Assembly (NCBI GenBank): GCA_947624055.1
Contig: CANQIW010000002.1
Location: 1 to 45,259 of the forward strand
Direction: 5' to 3'
DNA length: 45,259 nt
Origin: an uncultured Lachnospiraceae bacterium
GTDB lineage: Bacteria > Bacillota > Clostridia > Lachnospirales > Lachnospiraceae
This document shows positions 23,772 to 29,920 of the stretch, in pieces; position 1 is the stretch's first letter, and the number at the start of each line of letters is the position of its first letter. A model generated the notes under the pieces. That model saw only the letters and a program-made list of their open reading frames with translations, did not search any database and was not told where the DNA came from. The translations under genes were made by a program, and so were the position numbers.

Positions 23772-24070
23772 CGTTTTCCTTCCTTGTTTTCTTGCTGTTT
23801 TTCTCATTATAGTCTCTTTTTCCACAAAAGAAAAGGGCTTTTGTCCGGATTTCGACTGCGGTTTCTGACTGTTTTTGTGTACCCACTCAAAATAAATGTC
23901 AAAAACAGCTCCACGTCGAGACGACGAACGACGACGCGGGAAATGGCGGGAAAAGCCGATAAATCAAGGGAAAAACCGATTTTTTGAGCGCTCGCATCCG
24001 TGTTCGTTGACAAATATAATGAGAATATCGCTTTTTTTCGCGTCGATTCGGTGAATGGCGTGAGGAAGAA

Positions 24071-24486: not shown

Positions 24487-24960
24487 TTACGCAGAAATTA
24501 TGCCATTGCTCCCATTATTATCTTCATCCGTGCCGGGTACTTTGTTCGAAAAGATAACTTGAAAGTTTGGATCAGGTTCGTTGAGGATATTGAATGATCC
24601 GGCACCCCCCCTCAAATTTTTGCGCAATTTCATTTGGACAATCTCTAAAGTTTCTTCCTTATCATCTTTATTCAGTAAACGGAAAGAGGCAATAAGAACT
24701 GTTTCCATTTCTCCCAAATCGGAGATTACAGCCTTCTCCGATTTGGGAGATTTTCCCGTTAATAACCAGTCGATAGAACACTGTAAAGTATTTGCAAGTT
24801 GCACGAGGGTGTTAGCAGCCGGGAGTCTATTTCCATTTTCTATCTCACTCATATTTCCAGAAGAAATCCCAGTTAATTCTTTAATATCGTTTTGTGTCAA
24901 CTTTAGATCCTTTCTCCGGCTTTTTATTCTTTGCCCTATTAATGACATATTCAAATTCAT
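24487..24960 (-). CDS. XRE-family phage repressor (Mu c-like role)
   Basis: MNLNMSLIGQRIKSRRKDLKLTQNDIKELTGISSGNMSEIENGNRLPAANTLVQLANTLQCSIDWLLTG; GGAGG-tctta-ATG; divergent from the early operon. Confidence 0.88.
   Translation of the reverse strand: MNLNMSLIGQRIKSRRKDLKLTQNDIKELTGISSGNMSEIENGNRLPAANTLVQLANTLQCSIDWLLTGKSPKSEKAVISDLGEMETVLIASFRLLNKDDKEETLEIVQMKLRKNLRGGAGSFNILNEPDPNFQVIFSNKVPGTDEDNNGSNGIISA
24710..24750. promoter_or_regulatory. Pair of TCTCC-N6-GGAGA operator-like palindromes inside the repressor gene
   Basis: TCTCCCAAATCGGAGA (24710-24725) and its exact reverse complement TCTCCGATTTGGGAGA (24735-24750). Confidence 0.7.
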
Positions 24961-24972
24961 TAAGACCTCCAT

Positions 24973-25008
24973 TCTCCGATATAGAAATAAAATCTCCTGT
25001 AAAAGAAA
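24973..25008. promoter_or_regulatory. Two degenerate repressor operator-like sites
   Basis: TCTCCGATATAGAAAT (24973-24988) and TCTCCTGTAAAAGAAA (24993-25008) match the left half of the perfect operator. Confidence 0.5.
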
Positions 25009-25015
25009 ATTACAG

Positions 25016-25044
25016 TTGACATTCTCCGTTATAGGAGATATTAT
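25016..25044 (+). promoter_or_regulatory. Prophage early promoter (Pe) with embedded operator
   Basis: TTGACA (25016-25021)-17 nt-TATTAT (25039-25044); TCTCCGTTATAGGAGA (25023-25038) fills the spacer. Confidence 0.85.
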
Positions 25045-25182
25045 ATTTTCGGAAGGGTTATTAATCATTCTAAATAATACCACATCAATGAGATTTTCTC
25101 AATCGCAAAACGGACGTTCGTCCGAACTGGTGCCGATCTGAAGGCCCGGAACAGTAAACAGAACAGGAAAGAAGGGAAGGAG

Positions 25183-25425: not shown

Positions 25426-25626
25426 TCAGCGGGTGATGCTGTAGGATCCATAAGATCCCGAAGCATCCTCGCAGACGCGCATCTGGTACATCCGGCCGGG
25501 CACCGGGCTCTTCGCCTGATACTCACGGACAGATGTACCATCAGCCGCTTCGATCGAGTACACAAGCTGCCAGTTCGGACTCTGAGAGCACTGCGCACAA
25601 GACGAAGCGGATGACCGCTGTACCAT
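25426..25626 (-). CDS. 66-aa minicistron 1, unknown family
   Basis: MVQRSSASSCAQCSQSPNWQLVYSIEAADGTSVREYQAKSPVPGRMYQMRVCEDASGSYGSYSITR*; SD AAAGGAGGTGGG. Confidence 0.8.
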   Translation of the reverse strand: MVQRSSASSCAQCSQSPNWQLVYSIEAADGTSVREYQAKSPVPGRMYQMRVCEDASGSYGSYSITR

Positions 25627-25681
25627 CCAACCCACCTCCTTTCTGGTCTGGGCCGTTTGAAGGTTAGCGGGATACGACCTG

Positions 25682-25711
25682 ATTATATCAAACGTGGTCC
25701 AGAAAGGGAAG
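25682..25711 (-). promoter_or_regulatory. Promoter of minicistron 1
   Basis: Minus strand CTTCC box exactly 24 nt upstream of TATAAT. Confidence 0.6.
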
Positions 25712-25730
25712 CGGGTGATGGTATAGCAAA

Positions 25731-25753
25731 AAAGAAGGAGCAGCCGAAGCTGC
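25731..25753 (-). terminator. Terminator of minicistron 2
   Basis: Minus strand GCAGC-TTCG-GCTGC-TCCTTCTTTTTT. Confidence 0.8.
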
Positions 25754-25765
25754 CCCCGCCCGGCG

Positions 25766-25966
25766 TCAGCGGGTGATACTGTAGGATCCATAAGATCCCG
25801 AAGCATCCTCGCAGACGCGCATCTGGTACATCCGGCCGGGCACCGGGCTCTTCGCCTGGTATTCACAGACGGATGTACCATTAGCCGCTTTGACCACGCG
25901 CACGAGTTTCCACGTTGGCACGAAGAAAGGGTGCGCTCCGGACAAAGCAAAGTAGTTATACCGCAT
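25766..25966 (-). CDS. 66-aa minicistron 2, unknown family
   Basis: MRYNYFALSGAHPFFVPTWKLVRVVKAANGTSVCEYQAKSPVPGRMYQMRVCEDASGSYGSYSITR*; SD AAGGAGG 8 nt before ATG. Confidence 0.82.
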   Translation of the reverse strand: MRYNYFALSGAHPFFVPTWKLVRVVKAANGTSVCEYQAKSPVPGRMYQMRVCEDASGSYGSYSITR

Positions 25967-26020
25967 CACTTTCACCTCCTTCTGCGTGCAGGAGTGTGGT
26001 GAAAAACGACACGCAGTTAC

Positions 26021-26050
26021 ATTATAGCAAAAGCAATCCTAAAAAGGAAG
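26021..26050 (-). promoter_or_regulatory. Promoter of minicistron 2
   Basis: Minus strand CTTCC box exactly 24 nt upstream of TATAAT. Confidence 0.65.
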
Positions 26051-26065
26051 TGGGTGGCGGTATAG

Positions 26066-26092
26066 CAAAAAAGGGGCAGCCGAAGCCGCCCC
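26066..26092 (-). terminator. Terminator of minicistron 3
   Basis: Minus strand GGGGCGGC-TTCG-GCTGCCCC-TTTTTT; the G-U wobble pairs only in minus-strand RNA. Confidence 0.85.
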
Positions 26093-26100
26093 ACACCGCA

Positions 26101-26301
26101 TCAGCTTATAGCGCGGCAGGAACCATAAGATCCCGCAGCGTCTTCGCGGATGCGGTACTGGAACATCCGCCCGTGGTATGGACGAGCAGTCTCATATTCA
26201 CGGACAGATGAACCGTTTGCCGATTCGATCGAGTACACGAGTTTCCAGATTGGCGTCTTTGCCTCGTGCATCCCGGTCGGATCGGGGTAACAAAACGACA
26301 T
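26101..26301 (-). CDS. 66-aa minicistron 3, unknown family
   Basis: MSFCYPDPTGMHEAKTPIWKLVYSIESANGSSVREYETARPYHGRMFQYRIREDAAGSYGSCRAIS*; SD AAAGGAGG. Confidence 0.82.
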   Translation of the reverse strand: MSFCYPDPTGMHEAKTPIWKLVYSIESANGSSVREYETARPYHGRMFQYRIREDAAGSYGSCRAIS

Positions 26302-26350
26302 TGTTTCCACCTCCTTTCTACGTGCAGGAATGGAAACAACACGCAACTAC

Positions 26351-26380
26351 ATTATAACAGAGCAGATGCTGAAAAGGAAG
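26351..26380 (-). promoter_or_regulatory. Promoter of minicistron 3
   Basis: Minus strand CTTCC box exactly 24 nt upstream of TATAAT; overlaps the Shine-Dalgarno of the rightward ner-like gene. Confidence 0.65.
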
Positions 26381-26388
26381 TGATGAAC

Positions 26389-26604
26389 ATGGCATGGCAG
26401 AACGCGAACCTGACCCCGCTCGGGCGAGAAATCAAACACAAGTTAATAGACTGCGGGATGACGCAGCGGCAGCTGGCGGCATCCCTCGGCATCGCACCAC
26501 AGTATATCACGAAGATCCTGTCGGGCCAGCGGAGCGGGGAACGGTACATCCTGAAGATCTGCACGATGCTCGACATCAACATCAACGAGTACACCGCAGC
26601 ATAG
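26389..26604 (+). CDS. Small XRE HTH protein, Ner-like
   Basis: MAWQNANLTPLGREIKHKLIDCGMTQRQLAASLGIAPQYITKILSGQRSGERYILKICTMLDININEYTAA; directly upstream of the transposase. Confidence 0.85.
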   Translation: MAWQNANLTPLGREIKHKLIDCGMTQRQLAASLGIAPQYITKILSGQRSGERYILKICTMLDININEYTAA

Positions 26605-26617
26605 GAGGGGGAGAGCG

Positions 26618-28738
26618 ATGGCAGCACAAACAGCATATATCACCCTCGACGAAGCGGCGGCCTTAGAGGGCATAAGCTACGAAGCAATTAAGAAAAGGAC
26701 ACAAAGATCTCCAGAGAAGATGGGGATCAAGAAGGAGAAGCGCGAGAGCGCAGGCAAGGATCTGACGCTCGTGTCGGTCAACAGCCTCTCAAAGCAGGCG
26801 CGTGCCGCCTGGCGGGAGCGGGAACGGCTGCGGGCGCTGGCCGCGGATCCGGAGGACGCCGAAGGGCAGGAGCCGGTGAAGCAGGGGCGGCCCTGGTACG
26901 TGGACACGGACATCGACTGGTACATGCACCAGTACAGCGACGCCTACTACAAGGGCGTGGAGCTGGGCAACGTGGTCCGGGAGTTCCTGGCCTACGACCT
27001 GGACGAGCGCACGAAACACGCGGAGCAGTTCGCGCAGGAGCGCCTGGGCAAGGGCGCGCGGACGATCTACCGGTACGCGAAGGCATACATGGAGGCGCTG
27101 GCCTGGCAGGACAAGATGGAGAAGGAGACCGGGTGCAACTACGAATACTTCCGGATCCTCTGCCTCTGCCGGAAGCCGCGCGACGCGGGGACGTTCCCAA
27201 GCTTCGCGCCGGAGGTCAAGCAGACGATCAAGAACATCTGGTTCGACGCGGGCTTCGCGGGCAACCGGGGCACGCGCGAGATGCTCTACGAGAAGCTGGA
27301 GGACATCCAGCAGCTGAAGGGATGGGAGAAGATCCCGAGCTACCAGAGCGTGGTGCGCTACATCGCCTGGCTGATGGAAGACGAGGGCATGAAGAACGCG
27401 CACTTCCTGGCGGCCAACGGCATCCGGGACTACAAGAACCGGAAGATGCAGAAGAAGCGCAGGGACACGAAGGGGCTGGAGGTGCTGGAGATCGTCCAGG
27501 GCGACGAGCACACCTTCGACTGCTGGGTGACGGTCCGGGCGAAGAACGGGAAGCTGGTGCCGATCAGGCCGAAGCTGGTCTGCTGGATCGACACGCGCAG
27601 CCGCTGGATCCTCGGCGACATCATGTGCCGGGACGCGAACGCGCAGATCCTGAAGCAGAGCCTGCTGAAGCTGATCTACCACGACGCGGGGAGCGTGCCG
27701 AAGTATCTCTACATAGACAACGGCAAGGACTACACCGCGAAGGAGATGATCGGCGTGGACCGCAAGGACCGGCACGACCAGGAGGCGAAGGACGAGCACT
27801 TCGCGATGGCGTTCGACGACGCGACGCGCGGCTTCTACCGTGCGATCGGGATCGAGGACGAGCACATCGCGATGCCCTACGAGCCCTGGACGAAGGGGCA
27901 GATCGAGCGCTTCTTCGGGACGGTATGCAGCCGGTTCACGAAGTGGCTCGCGAGCTACACCGGCACGCTGACCGGATCGCTGACGTCCGCGAAGGTGAAC
28001 AAGGACATCCAGCGGATGGCCGAGCAGGGCAGGCTGCTGACACTCGAAGAGTTCTACGAGCGCTGGACGACCTGGAAGATGGAAAAGTACAGCGAGTGGA
28101 AGCACGCGGAGCTGAAGAAGGCGGGCGAGGAGTACAGGACGCCGCTGTCGCTCTTCGAGAACGGCGAGCGCTACTTCAAGGCCCCGCCCGCGAAGGTGCA
28201 GGCGACCATGCTAATGATGAAGGAAGACCGGGTGCGGGTGTACAACACCGGCATCGAGCGCCGCGGCCACTACTACATGGACGAGGACGGCGAGCTGATC
28301 CGGCACATCGGCGAGAGCGTGACGATCAAGTGGGACCCGGACGACGTGACGAGCATCTACGTCTTCGACCAGAAGGGCAGGCTGATCTGCGAGGCCGCAA
28401 GCCAGGAGCTGCTCCAGTTCGGGACGGTGAGCGACGACGTCCTGAAGGAGCACCGCAGGCGGCAGAACGCGCAGGTGAAGCGTGACCGGGAAATCCTGAA
28501 GGAAGCGACCACGCCGTTCGGGGAGCTGAACGCGCAGGAAGGCATCCGCAGGGAGGTGGCCGGGATGGACGGACTGCTGGTCGGCAGGGCACCGAAGGGC
28601 AACACGGTTCAGTTCCCGGACAGCCGCCACGTGCAGCAGAACTACAAGGAGCTGAAGAAGGAGCGCGCGGGCTCACGCTACATGAGCGCGCAGGCACAGA
28701 AGGCGCTGGAGCGCCTGAAGACGATCGGGGAGGCGTGA
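26618..28738 (+). CDS. MuA-like DDE transposase
   Basis: 706 aa; N-terminal HTH (ITLDEAAALEGISYEAIKKR), rve core (VQGDEHTFDCWV, LYIDNGKDY, YEPWTKGQIERFFGT), Mu-transposase C-terminal region. Confidence 0.95.
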   Translation: MAAQTAYITLDEAAALEGISYEAIKKRTQRSPEKMGIKKEKRESAGKDLTLVSVNSLSKQARAAWRERERLRALAADPEDAEGQEPVKQGRPWYVDTDIDWYMHQYSDAYYKGVELGNVVREFLAYDLDERTKHAEQFAQERLGKGARTIYRYAKAYMEALAWQDKMEKETGCNYEYFRILCLCRKPRDAGTFPSFAPEVKQTIKNIWFDAGFAGNRGTREMLYEKLEDIQQLKGWEKIPSYQSVVRYIAWLMEDEGMKNAHFLAANGIRDYKNRKMQKKRRDTKGLEVLEIVQGDEHTFDCWVTVRAKNGKLVPIRPKLVCWIDTRSRWILGDIMCRDANAQILKQSLLKLIYHDAGSVPKYLYIDNGKDYTAKEMIGVDRKDRHDQEAKDEHFAMAFDDATRGFYRAIGIEDEHIAMPYEPWTKGQIERFFGTVCSRFTKWLASYTGTLTGSLTSAKVNKDIQRMAEQGRLLTLEEFYERWTTWKMEKYSEWKHAELKKAGEEYRTPLSLFENGERYFKAPPAKVQATMLMMKEDRVRVYNTGIERRGHYYMDEDGELIRHIGESVTIKWDPDDVTSIYVFDQKGRLICEAASQELLQFGTVSDDVLKEHRRRQNAQVKRDREILKEATTPFGELNAQEGIRREVAGMDGLLVGRAPKGNTVQFPDSRHVQQNYKELKKERAGSRYMSAQAQKALERLKTIGEA

Positions 28739-28742
28739 CGGC

Positions 28743-28874
28743 ATGGCGGACAGGATCCTGCGGTTTGCCGGGGCAGTCTTCTGGGGCATCTTCTGGCTGG
28801 TCTGCACACTGGTGAGCCTGCTCTTCCTGCCGCTGGATCTGTTCAACCCGGAGTTTTGGGACCAAAGACGATAA
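28743..28874 (+). CDS. 43-aa predicted membrane peptide
   Basis: MADRILRFAGAVFWGIFWLVCTLVSLLFLPLDLFNPEFWDQRR*; one TM helix, between A-like and B-like genes. Confidence 0.55.
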   Translation: MADRILRFAGAVFWGIFWLVCTLVSLLFLPLDLFNPEFWDQRR

Positions 28875-28897
28875 CAGGAGAAAGAGAGGGTATAAAC

Positions 28898-29920
28898 ATG
28901 AACGAAGCAACTACCAACACGAACAAAAAGGAAGGGACGCCGACGGAGCTGGCGCTGGCCGTGACGGAGCGCCTGGCGAAGATCCACTGCACGAAGCAGG
29001 AGCTGGCGATCATGACGGGATGCAGCCGGTCGATGATCTCACAGTACCTCTCCGGCACGTACCGGAGCAACCCGGAGACGGTCGAGACGGTGCTGCGCAG
29101 GTGGATGGACGAGACGGAGGCCGAGTACGGCGACGGCCGGAAGTGGCTGGACGGCGAGGCGGCCGCGCAGGAGGCAGACGCGCAGGCGGCCGCCCCGGAG
29201 CCGGGCAGGCTGCCGGAGAAGATCCGCTACTTCGAGAGTGACGACTACCGCAAGGTGATCGGGCTGTGCCAGAGCTGCCAGGAGGACAGGGCGCTCGGCA
29301 TCGTGGTCGGCCGCTCCGGCTACGGCAAGACGCACGCGCTCCAGCGCTACGCACAGCTGCCGCGCGTCTGCTACCTCGAATGTGACGACACCATGAGCAG
29401 CAAGGACATGCTGGAGGAGATCGAGGAGCGCCTGGGGCTGCTGGCCGAGGGCGGCACGATCCACCGGAGGGTGAAGCGGATCCGCGAGTTCCTGCGGGTG
29501 AACGCGGGCTACCTGATGATCTTCGACGAGGCGGACAAGCTGATGAACAAGTACACGACCGCGAAGCTGGAGATCATCCGCGGGATCTTCGACAAGGTGG
29601 ACGTGGGCGTCGTGATCGCGGGGGAGCCGCGGCTGGAGACGGACCTGAAGCAGCACCTGGTCCGCTTCTCGAACCGGGTGGACTTCTATCACAAGATGCA
29701 CGGGCTGACGCACGCGGAGCTGGAGCGCTACCTGGCGGGCTGGGACATCACCGAGGACGCGGCCGCGGAGCTGGCGCAGCGTGCCTACGCGGCACGGGGC
29801 GGGTGCTTCCGGCTTTTAGACCGGACACTGAACAACGTGCTGCGCGTCCTGCGTGAACGCGGGGAGACGAAGGTCACGCTGGACACCGTGCGCGAGGCGA
29901 GCGGCATGATGATGCTGTAG
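28898..29920 (+). CDS. MuB-like AAA ATPase (target DNA activator)
   Basis: HTH N-terminus, Walker A VGRSGYGKTHALQRYA, Walker B LMIFDEADKL; ATG at 28898. Confidence 0.93.
   Translation: MNEATTNTNKKEGTPTELALAVTERLAKIHCTKQELAIMTGCSRSMISQYLSGTYRSNPETVETVLRRWMDETEAEYGDGRKWLDGEAAAQEADAQAAAPEPGRLPEKIRYFESDDYRKVIGLCQSCQEDRALGIVVGRSGYGKTHALQRYAQLPRVCYLECDDTMSSKDMLEEIEERLGLLAEGGTIHRRVKRIREFLRVNAGYLMIFDEADKLMNKYTTAKLEIIRGIFDKVDVGVVIAGEPRLETDLKQHLVRFSNRVDFYHKMHGLTHAELERYLAGWDITEDAAAELAQRAYAARGGCFRLLDRTLNNVLRVLRERGETKVTLDTVREASGMMML

Follow-up and report, generated by a model that had tools for sequence, protein, structure and literature searches.

Predicted cognate operators within the interdomain linker codons of a Mu-like prophage repressor gene

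Does the repressor gene of a prophage carry binding sites for its own product among its codons and, if so, how might such sites act? The question is raised by the window (the whole stretch of 45,259 bp that was analysed), which holds the left part of a Mu-like transposable prophage, with a MuA-type transposase and a MuB-type ATPase beside a divergent repressor (Table 1). The left end of the prophage was inferred at ~23878 (TGTACCC...), where nucleotide similarity to the related L020 prophage stops. The original prediction had placed within the repressor coding sequence a pair of palindromes that are exact reverse complements of each other and share the form TCTCC-N6-GGAGA with a palindrome in the early promoter. 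The pair is present at the positions originally given, with 9 nt between the two sequences and 25 bp from centre to centre, and the common form was confirmed. Exact TCTCC-N6-GGAGA occurs only three times in the window, namely as OL1, OL2 and O1. Dinucleotide shuffles gave a mean of 0.06 such sites per window (0/100 shuffles reached 3), and the 2.5-Mb assembly contains 7, of which 3 lie within 330 bp at the repressor locus. When the 45-kb window was scanned with the Pe operator, only O1, OL1 and OL2 matched at 13/16 positions or better (>=13/16).

Table 1. Genes, promoters and predicted operators of the immunity region and early operon, in window coordinates
Feature	Position	Strand	Description
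Phage repressor gene, 157 aa	24487-24960	-	ORF with GGAGG ribosome-binding site; Pfam HTH_19 (8e-15); XRE/P22-c2-like HTH and short C-terminal helical hairpin
OL2, linker operator (predicted)	24710-24725	-	TCTCCCAAATCGGAGA; exact TCTCC-N6-GGAGA; codons 79-84; linker register +28; 313 bp from O1
OL1, linker operator (predicted)	24735-24750	-	TCTCCGATTTGGGAGA; exact TCTCC-N6-GGAGA; codons 71-76; linker register +3; 288 bp from O1
O3, imperfect operator	24973-24988	-	12/16 to O1; 50 bp from O1; just upstream of repressor ribosome-binding site
O2, imperfect operator	24993-25008	-	One good half-site; 12/16 to O1; 30 bp from O1
Early promoter Pe	25016-25044	+	TTGACA-N17-TATTAT; -35 at 25016-25021, -10 at 25039-25044; 11/12 consensus positions; reads toward ner-like, MuA and MuB genes
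O1, early-promoter operator (predicted)	25023-25038	+	TCTCCGTTATAGGAGA; fills the 17-bp spacer between -35 and -10 of Pe
Candidate repressor promoter	25074-25102	-	TTGAGA-N17-TATTAT, extended -10; consensus match only
ner-like small HTH gene	26266-26604		ORF
MuA-like transposase	26618-28738	+	Pfam DDE_2, Mu-transpos_C; PHROG 310
MuB-like AAA ATPase	28856-29920	+	Pfam AAA_22, TniB

The Pfam matches of the repressor include HTH_19 and HTH_3, consistent with a Cro/C1-type HTH domain, and profile and fold comparisons matched the P22 c2, 434 and SinR repressors, with P22 c2 as the best PDB match by both. A LexA-like self-cleaving C-terminal domain of the P22/lambda type is absent, no peptidase domain being found among the Pfam matches. 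The structure of the repressor monomer was modelled in AlphaFold2 using 15 relatives, yielding helices to residue 68, a coil at residues 69-82, two C-terminal helices at residues 83-116 and a low-confidence tail. OL1 and OL2 together encode S71-E84 (SPKSEKAVISDLGE), modelled as a low-confidence coil between the HTH domain and the C-terminal helical hairpin (mean pLDDT of 57 for the linker block 71-80), in agreement with the location between the HTH and C-terminal parts that had been claimed for the palindromes.

Related repressor loci were drawn from viral contigs and bacterial genomes, and 25 non-redundant loci were analysed. The operator of each locus was defined as the 16-bp sequence in the Pe spacer, chosen by a fixed promoter-scoring rule blind to the gene, with a single manual exception (L021, for which the 16-bp spacer was lengthened to the full palindrome). 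The Pe-type promoter design with a spacer operator was kept in all relatives examined, the promoter always read away from the repressor in the loci used, and the spacer 16-mer was palindromic or nearly so in most relatives. Equivalents of O2 were found at about +30 (28-32) in most relatives and of O3 at about +50 in many, and a sequence resembling the candidate repressor promoter also lies upstream of the L008 and L020 repressors. A search of a phage DNA collection returned zero nucleotide matches and distant repressors only, and a plasmid search returned no match. One match of 28 bp to the linker inverted repeat, at 93% identity, lies in an AAA-ATPase gene of another genome (L022:1501-1529) and was judged to be due to chance.

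When the whole coding sequence was searched for the best copy of the locus's own operator, this copy fell in the linker in 22/25 non-redundant loci. Own operators scored 310 on the linkers against 252.7 ± 6.0 for permuted operators (25 loci; 200,000 permutations, largest 284), giving a z of 9.6 and p <= 5e-6, a value that overstates independence since the loci are kin by descent. For two stretches of the HTH domain and one of the C-terminal part, the same permutation test gave no excess of own operators (p of 0.70, 0.37 and 0.85, respectively). By register after the conserved glycine codon, the mean own-operator score over the 25 loci was 9.9 at +3 and 8.2 at +28, and 3.8-6.3 elsewhere. The correspondence can be read directly from single loci, such as L014 (Pe operator TCTTCAATATACGAGA, linker copy TCTTCAATTAACGAGA), L017 (TTTCGGAAAAACGAGA and CTTCGGATAAACGAGA), L021 (TATCGGATATTAGATA and TATCGGATTTTGAATA) and L059 (TCTTCGTATCCGAAGA and TCTTCGGAAACGAAGA, the latter matching at 15/16 to the reverse complement), and in L063 the operator is completely different from that of the window (TATGCTAATTAGCATA in Pe, TATGCTAATGAGCATA in the linker). 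Loci that were fetched once the pattern had been noticed also fit (L051-L053, L058, L061, L038, L059, L060, L062 and L063), including one from a different bacterial family (L038), whose linker matches its own operator at 13/16, a match equalled by 0/22 foreign operators. Linker matches are weak in L058, L032, L016 and L053, and several phages have one recognisable linker site, not two. Linker operators are not universal among the relatives, because L039 and L041, from other bacterial families, do not have them and L040 is doubtful. As a separate observation, the L021 repressor gene (L021:1559-1948) contains an apparent frameshift near its start, yet the match between its linker and Pe operators is retained.

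The original claim that repressor operators lie inside the repressor gene is thus strongly supported across the relatives, with one or two copies of the own operator at the same linker registers, co-varying with the early-promoter operator. In this family of Mu-like phages of gut bacteria, it is very probable that the repressor gene harbours sites at which its own product binds, and the comparative evidence allows the linker sites to be assigned with high confidence as cognate operators of the repressor. Descent alone does not account for the joint change of two copies within one phage. The window, L020 and L024, which are close by operator, each contain two perfect TCTCC-N6-GGAGA linker sites, whose spacing is 25 bp in all three and whose N6 centres differ, and the linker columns identical among the three are mainly TCTCC......GGAGA twice. 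Third positions at synonymous codons were identical in 6/7 linker codons of these three loci versus 9/35 HTH codons (Fisher p of 0.005).

Comparison of mosaic repressors was consistent with the same reading. L009 and L063 have 43/47 C-terminal residues in common and only 32/67 HTH residues; their operators differ, and each linker matches its own. L059 is a mosaic of the same kind (43/47 C-terminal and 33/67 HTH residues). In these mosaics the linker matches the own operator, and therefore the HTH domain, the linker operator and the Pe operator appear to change as one unit. Considered separately, the joining of near-identical C-terminal domains to different HTH domains in L009, L059 and L063 suggests that domains were exchanged in the linker or close to it.

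As to how the sites might act, we favour, at slightly better than an even chance, a model in which the linker DNA doubles as a tandem operator pair, OL1/OL2, beyond O1 and the imperfect O2 and O3, that would be filled after O1 and would stall RNA polymerase and cap repressor synthesis. Repressor dimers would fill O1 first, switching off the lytic operon, and at a higher repressor level OL1 and OL2 would be filled, probably together. The 25-bp pair would suit two neighbouring dimers, resembling OR1-OR2 of lambda and P22, in which adjacent operators ~2.5 turns apart are suited to cooperative dimers. The tandem operators of lambda and P22 are spaced by 23-24 bp; the present operators differ in lying in coding sequence, and the present repressor in being without a large C-terminal domain. 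Once bound, OL1 and OL2 would stall RNA polymerase within the repressor gene ahead of the C-terminal domain, and since the sites are upstream of that domain, any transcript halted there would fall short of coding for the whole repressor. The placement of the sites favours this roadblock: they are transcribed with the gene, precede the C-terminal domain and avoid the equally variable C-terminal tail. The roadblock is put slightly ahead of DNA looping, the other mechanism offered in the original prediction, and both may act. A consideration against a pure roadblock is that autoregulation could already be served by the leader sites O2 and O3, so that the need for further roadblocks is not obvious.

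By analogy, a roadblock of this type has experimental precedents. The small HTH regulator C.Kpn2I, which controls the Kpn2I restriction-modification system, exerts negative feedback by binding within its own gene, where it stalls RNA polymerase (PMC6237814), and lac O3 serves LacI as a roadblock on lacI (PMC3711431). The likeness to C.Kpn2I is that of an HTH regulator with a binding site within its own coding sequence, predicted here from sequence in 22/25 loci. However, C.Kpn2I has a single reported site, close to its start codon, whereas the phage has a tandem linker pair, which co-varies with specificity across phages, together with early-promoter and leader operators. The pair is also comparable to the stoperators of L5-like mycobacteriophages in being extra repressor sites beyond promoters with a possible block to elongation. 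Stoperators are many asymmetric sites spread over the genome, outside promoters, that can block elongation; in contrast, only three good sites are found in 45 kb here, palindromic and all in the immunity region, and the undispersed arrangement is therefore not a stoperator system.

In the roadblock model, the linker sites would travel with the DNA-binding-domain segment, so that a phage gaining a new HTH domain would also gain matching internal sites, and the linker amino acids would then be partly dictated by the linker DNA. We consider it evenly balanced whether this extends to a full immunity cassette, in which the HTH domain, the leader operators and the two linker-codon operators would move and evolve as a unit, specificity being exchangeable, the internal sites always matching and the operator dictating linker residues. 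The comparison reveals a coding sequence in clear double use, its linker codons being at the same time a changing pair of predicted operators whose position is kept while the operator sequence changes completely. A model that can be tested follows for how temperate phages keep the level of the repressor in step with its specificity as immunity modules recombine. The operator of any new member should be readable from two independent places, the Pe spacer and the linker, and operator searches confined to intergenic DNA would miss the linker sites.

The strongest alternative is that OL1 and OL2 are auxiliary looping operators, from which bound repressor would contact repressor at O1 and shut Pe more tightly; we regard this as tentative and more probably wrong than right as the main function, and it may be combined with the roadblock. 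It draws on the same evidence for cognate operators, the second cognate site being 255-345 bp from O1 across loci, and the distance from OL to O1 exceeds DNA stiffness. The +3 sites cluster weakly in 10.5-bp helical phase with O1 (R of 0.50, p about 0.02 with descent left uncorrected), but p rose to about 0.09 when unique distances were used and to 0.08 with best-site distances, and R fell from 0.67 with 12 loci to 0.50 with more loci. Moreover, OL1 and OL2 are 2.4 turns apart and therefore cannot both be in phase with O1, and formation of a repressor tetramer is putative, the structure having been modelled as a monomer only. The lac O2 operator lies in lacZ, that is, in the regulated gene, and is used in looping, as are OL-OR of lambda. 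Like lac O2 and O3, the pair would consist of auxiliary operators situated within coding sequence or adjoining it, with looping or autoregulation by roadblock as their role, and the difference from O2 is that the phage pair is in the linker of the repressor gene, within the immunity region. The principle of operators in the own or adjacent gene is known from C.Kpn2I and lac O3/O2; no report of operators in a phage repressor linker was found in openly searchable papers.

It is very improbable that the operators double as a transposition enhancer of the Mu type, bound by the N-terminus of the transposase. The operator region of Mu is also its enhancer (O/E, PMC3820752), the element described here is Mu-like and the sites lie 0.8-1.2 kb away from the left end inferred at 23878. 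In a separate comparison, the layout resembles O1-O2-O3 of Mu, with the repressor gene near the left end, an early promoter reading away to ner, A and B and several operators between. However, the present repressor is of the XRE/P22-c2 type and Pfam gives no match for residues 1-121 of the transposase, so that no sign was seen of the homology that allows site sharing between repressor and transposase in Mu; the linker sites, moreover, track the operator of the repressor exactly. To our knowledge, linker operators in the repressor gene have not been described for Mu.

Still less probable is an amino-acid constraint on the linker that yields operator-like DNA by accident. The peptide pattern S-P-x-x-E ... 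I-S-x-x-G-E is partly common to relatives, but synonymous recoding loses the linker sites (combined p of 1.3e-7), random synonymous recoding regaining both in 0.7-2.5 per 10,000 draws; in addition, other operators are accompanied by other linker peptides, and the linker comes out as a coil in the structural model. Least probable of all is that an RNA hairpin on the repressor mRNA is the feature and the operator likeness secondary, since the strong fold of the window (-27.7 kcal/mol, z of -7.9) is replaced by two separate small hairpins in L020 and by no stable fold in L014, though both keep the operators, and the N6 centres of the two linker sites lack complementarity in relatives.

The 16-bp inverted repeat and the 16-bp hairpin with a 9-nt loop that had been described therefore exist in the window; as a functional feature they were not upheld, given the non-complementary centres and the missing long hairpin in relatives. 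For a perfect 16-bp inverted repeat to arise, two palindromes are required that are, by chance, complementary in their centres as well; the repeat is regarded as incidental. Zero occurrences of the exact inverted-repeat pattern were found in the viral contigs searched, which agrees with the repeat being local. Template switching between adjacent palindromes could create such a perfect inverted repeat. A similar long inverted repeat (TTCGATATCTGAT ... ATCAGATATCGAA) was observed in the L026 linker (L026:3992-4378), formed from its two operator copies, and the operator there differs from that of the window.

Two further features were noted in the window. Three tandem paralogous short ORFs of about 60-80 aa, ending ...GRMYQMRVCEDASGSYGSYSITR or similar, are located between Pe and the ner-like gene on the reverse strand (25426-26346), and relatives of these ORFs occur in L020 and L047. 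The MuB-like ATPase carries an N-terminal HTH of its own at residues 42-78 (weak Pfam HTH_3 match).
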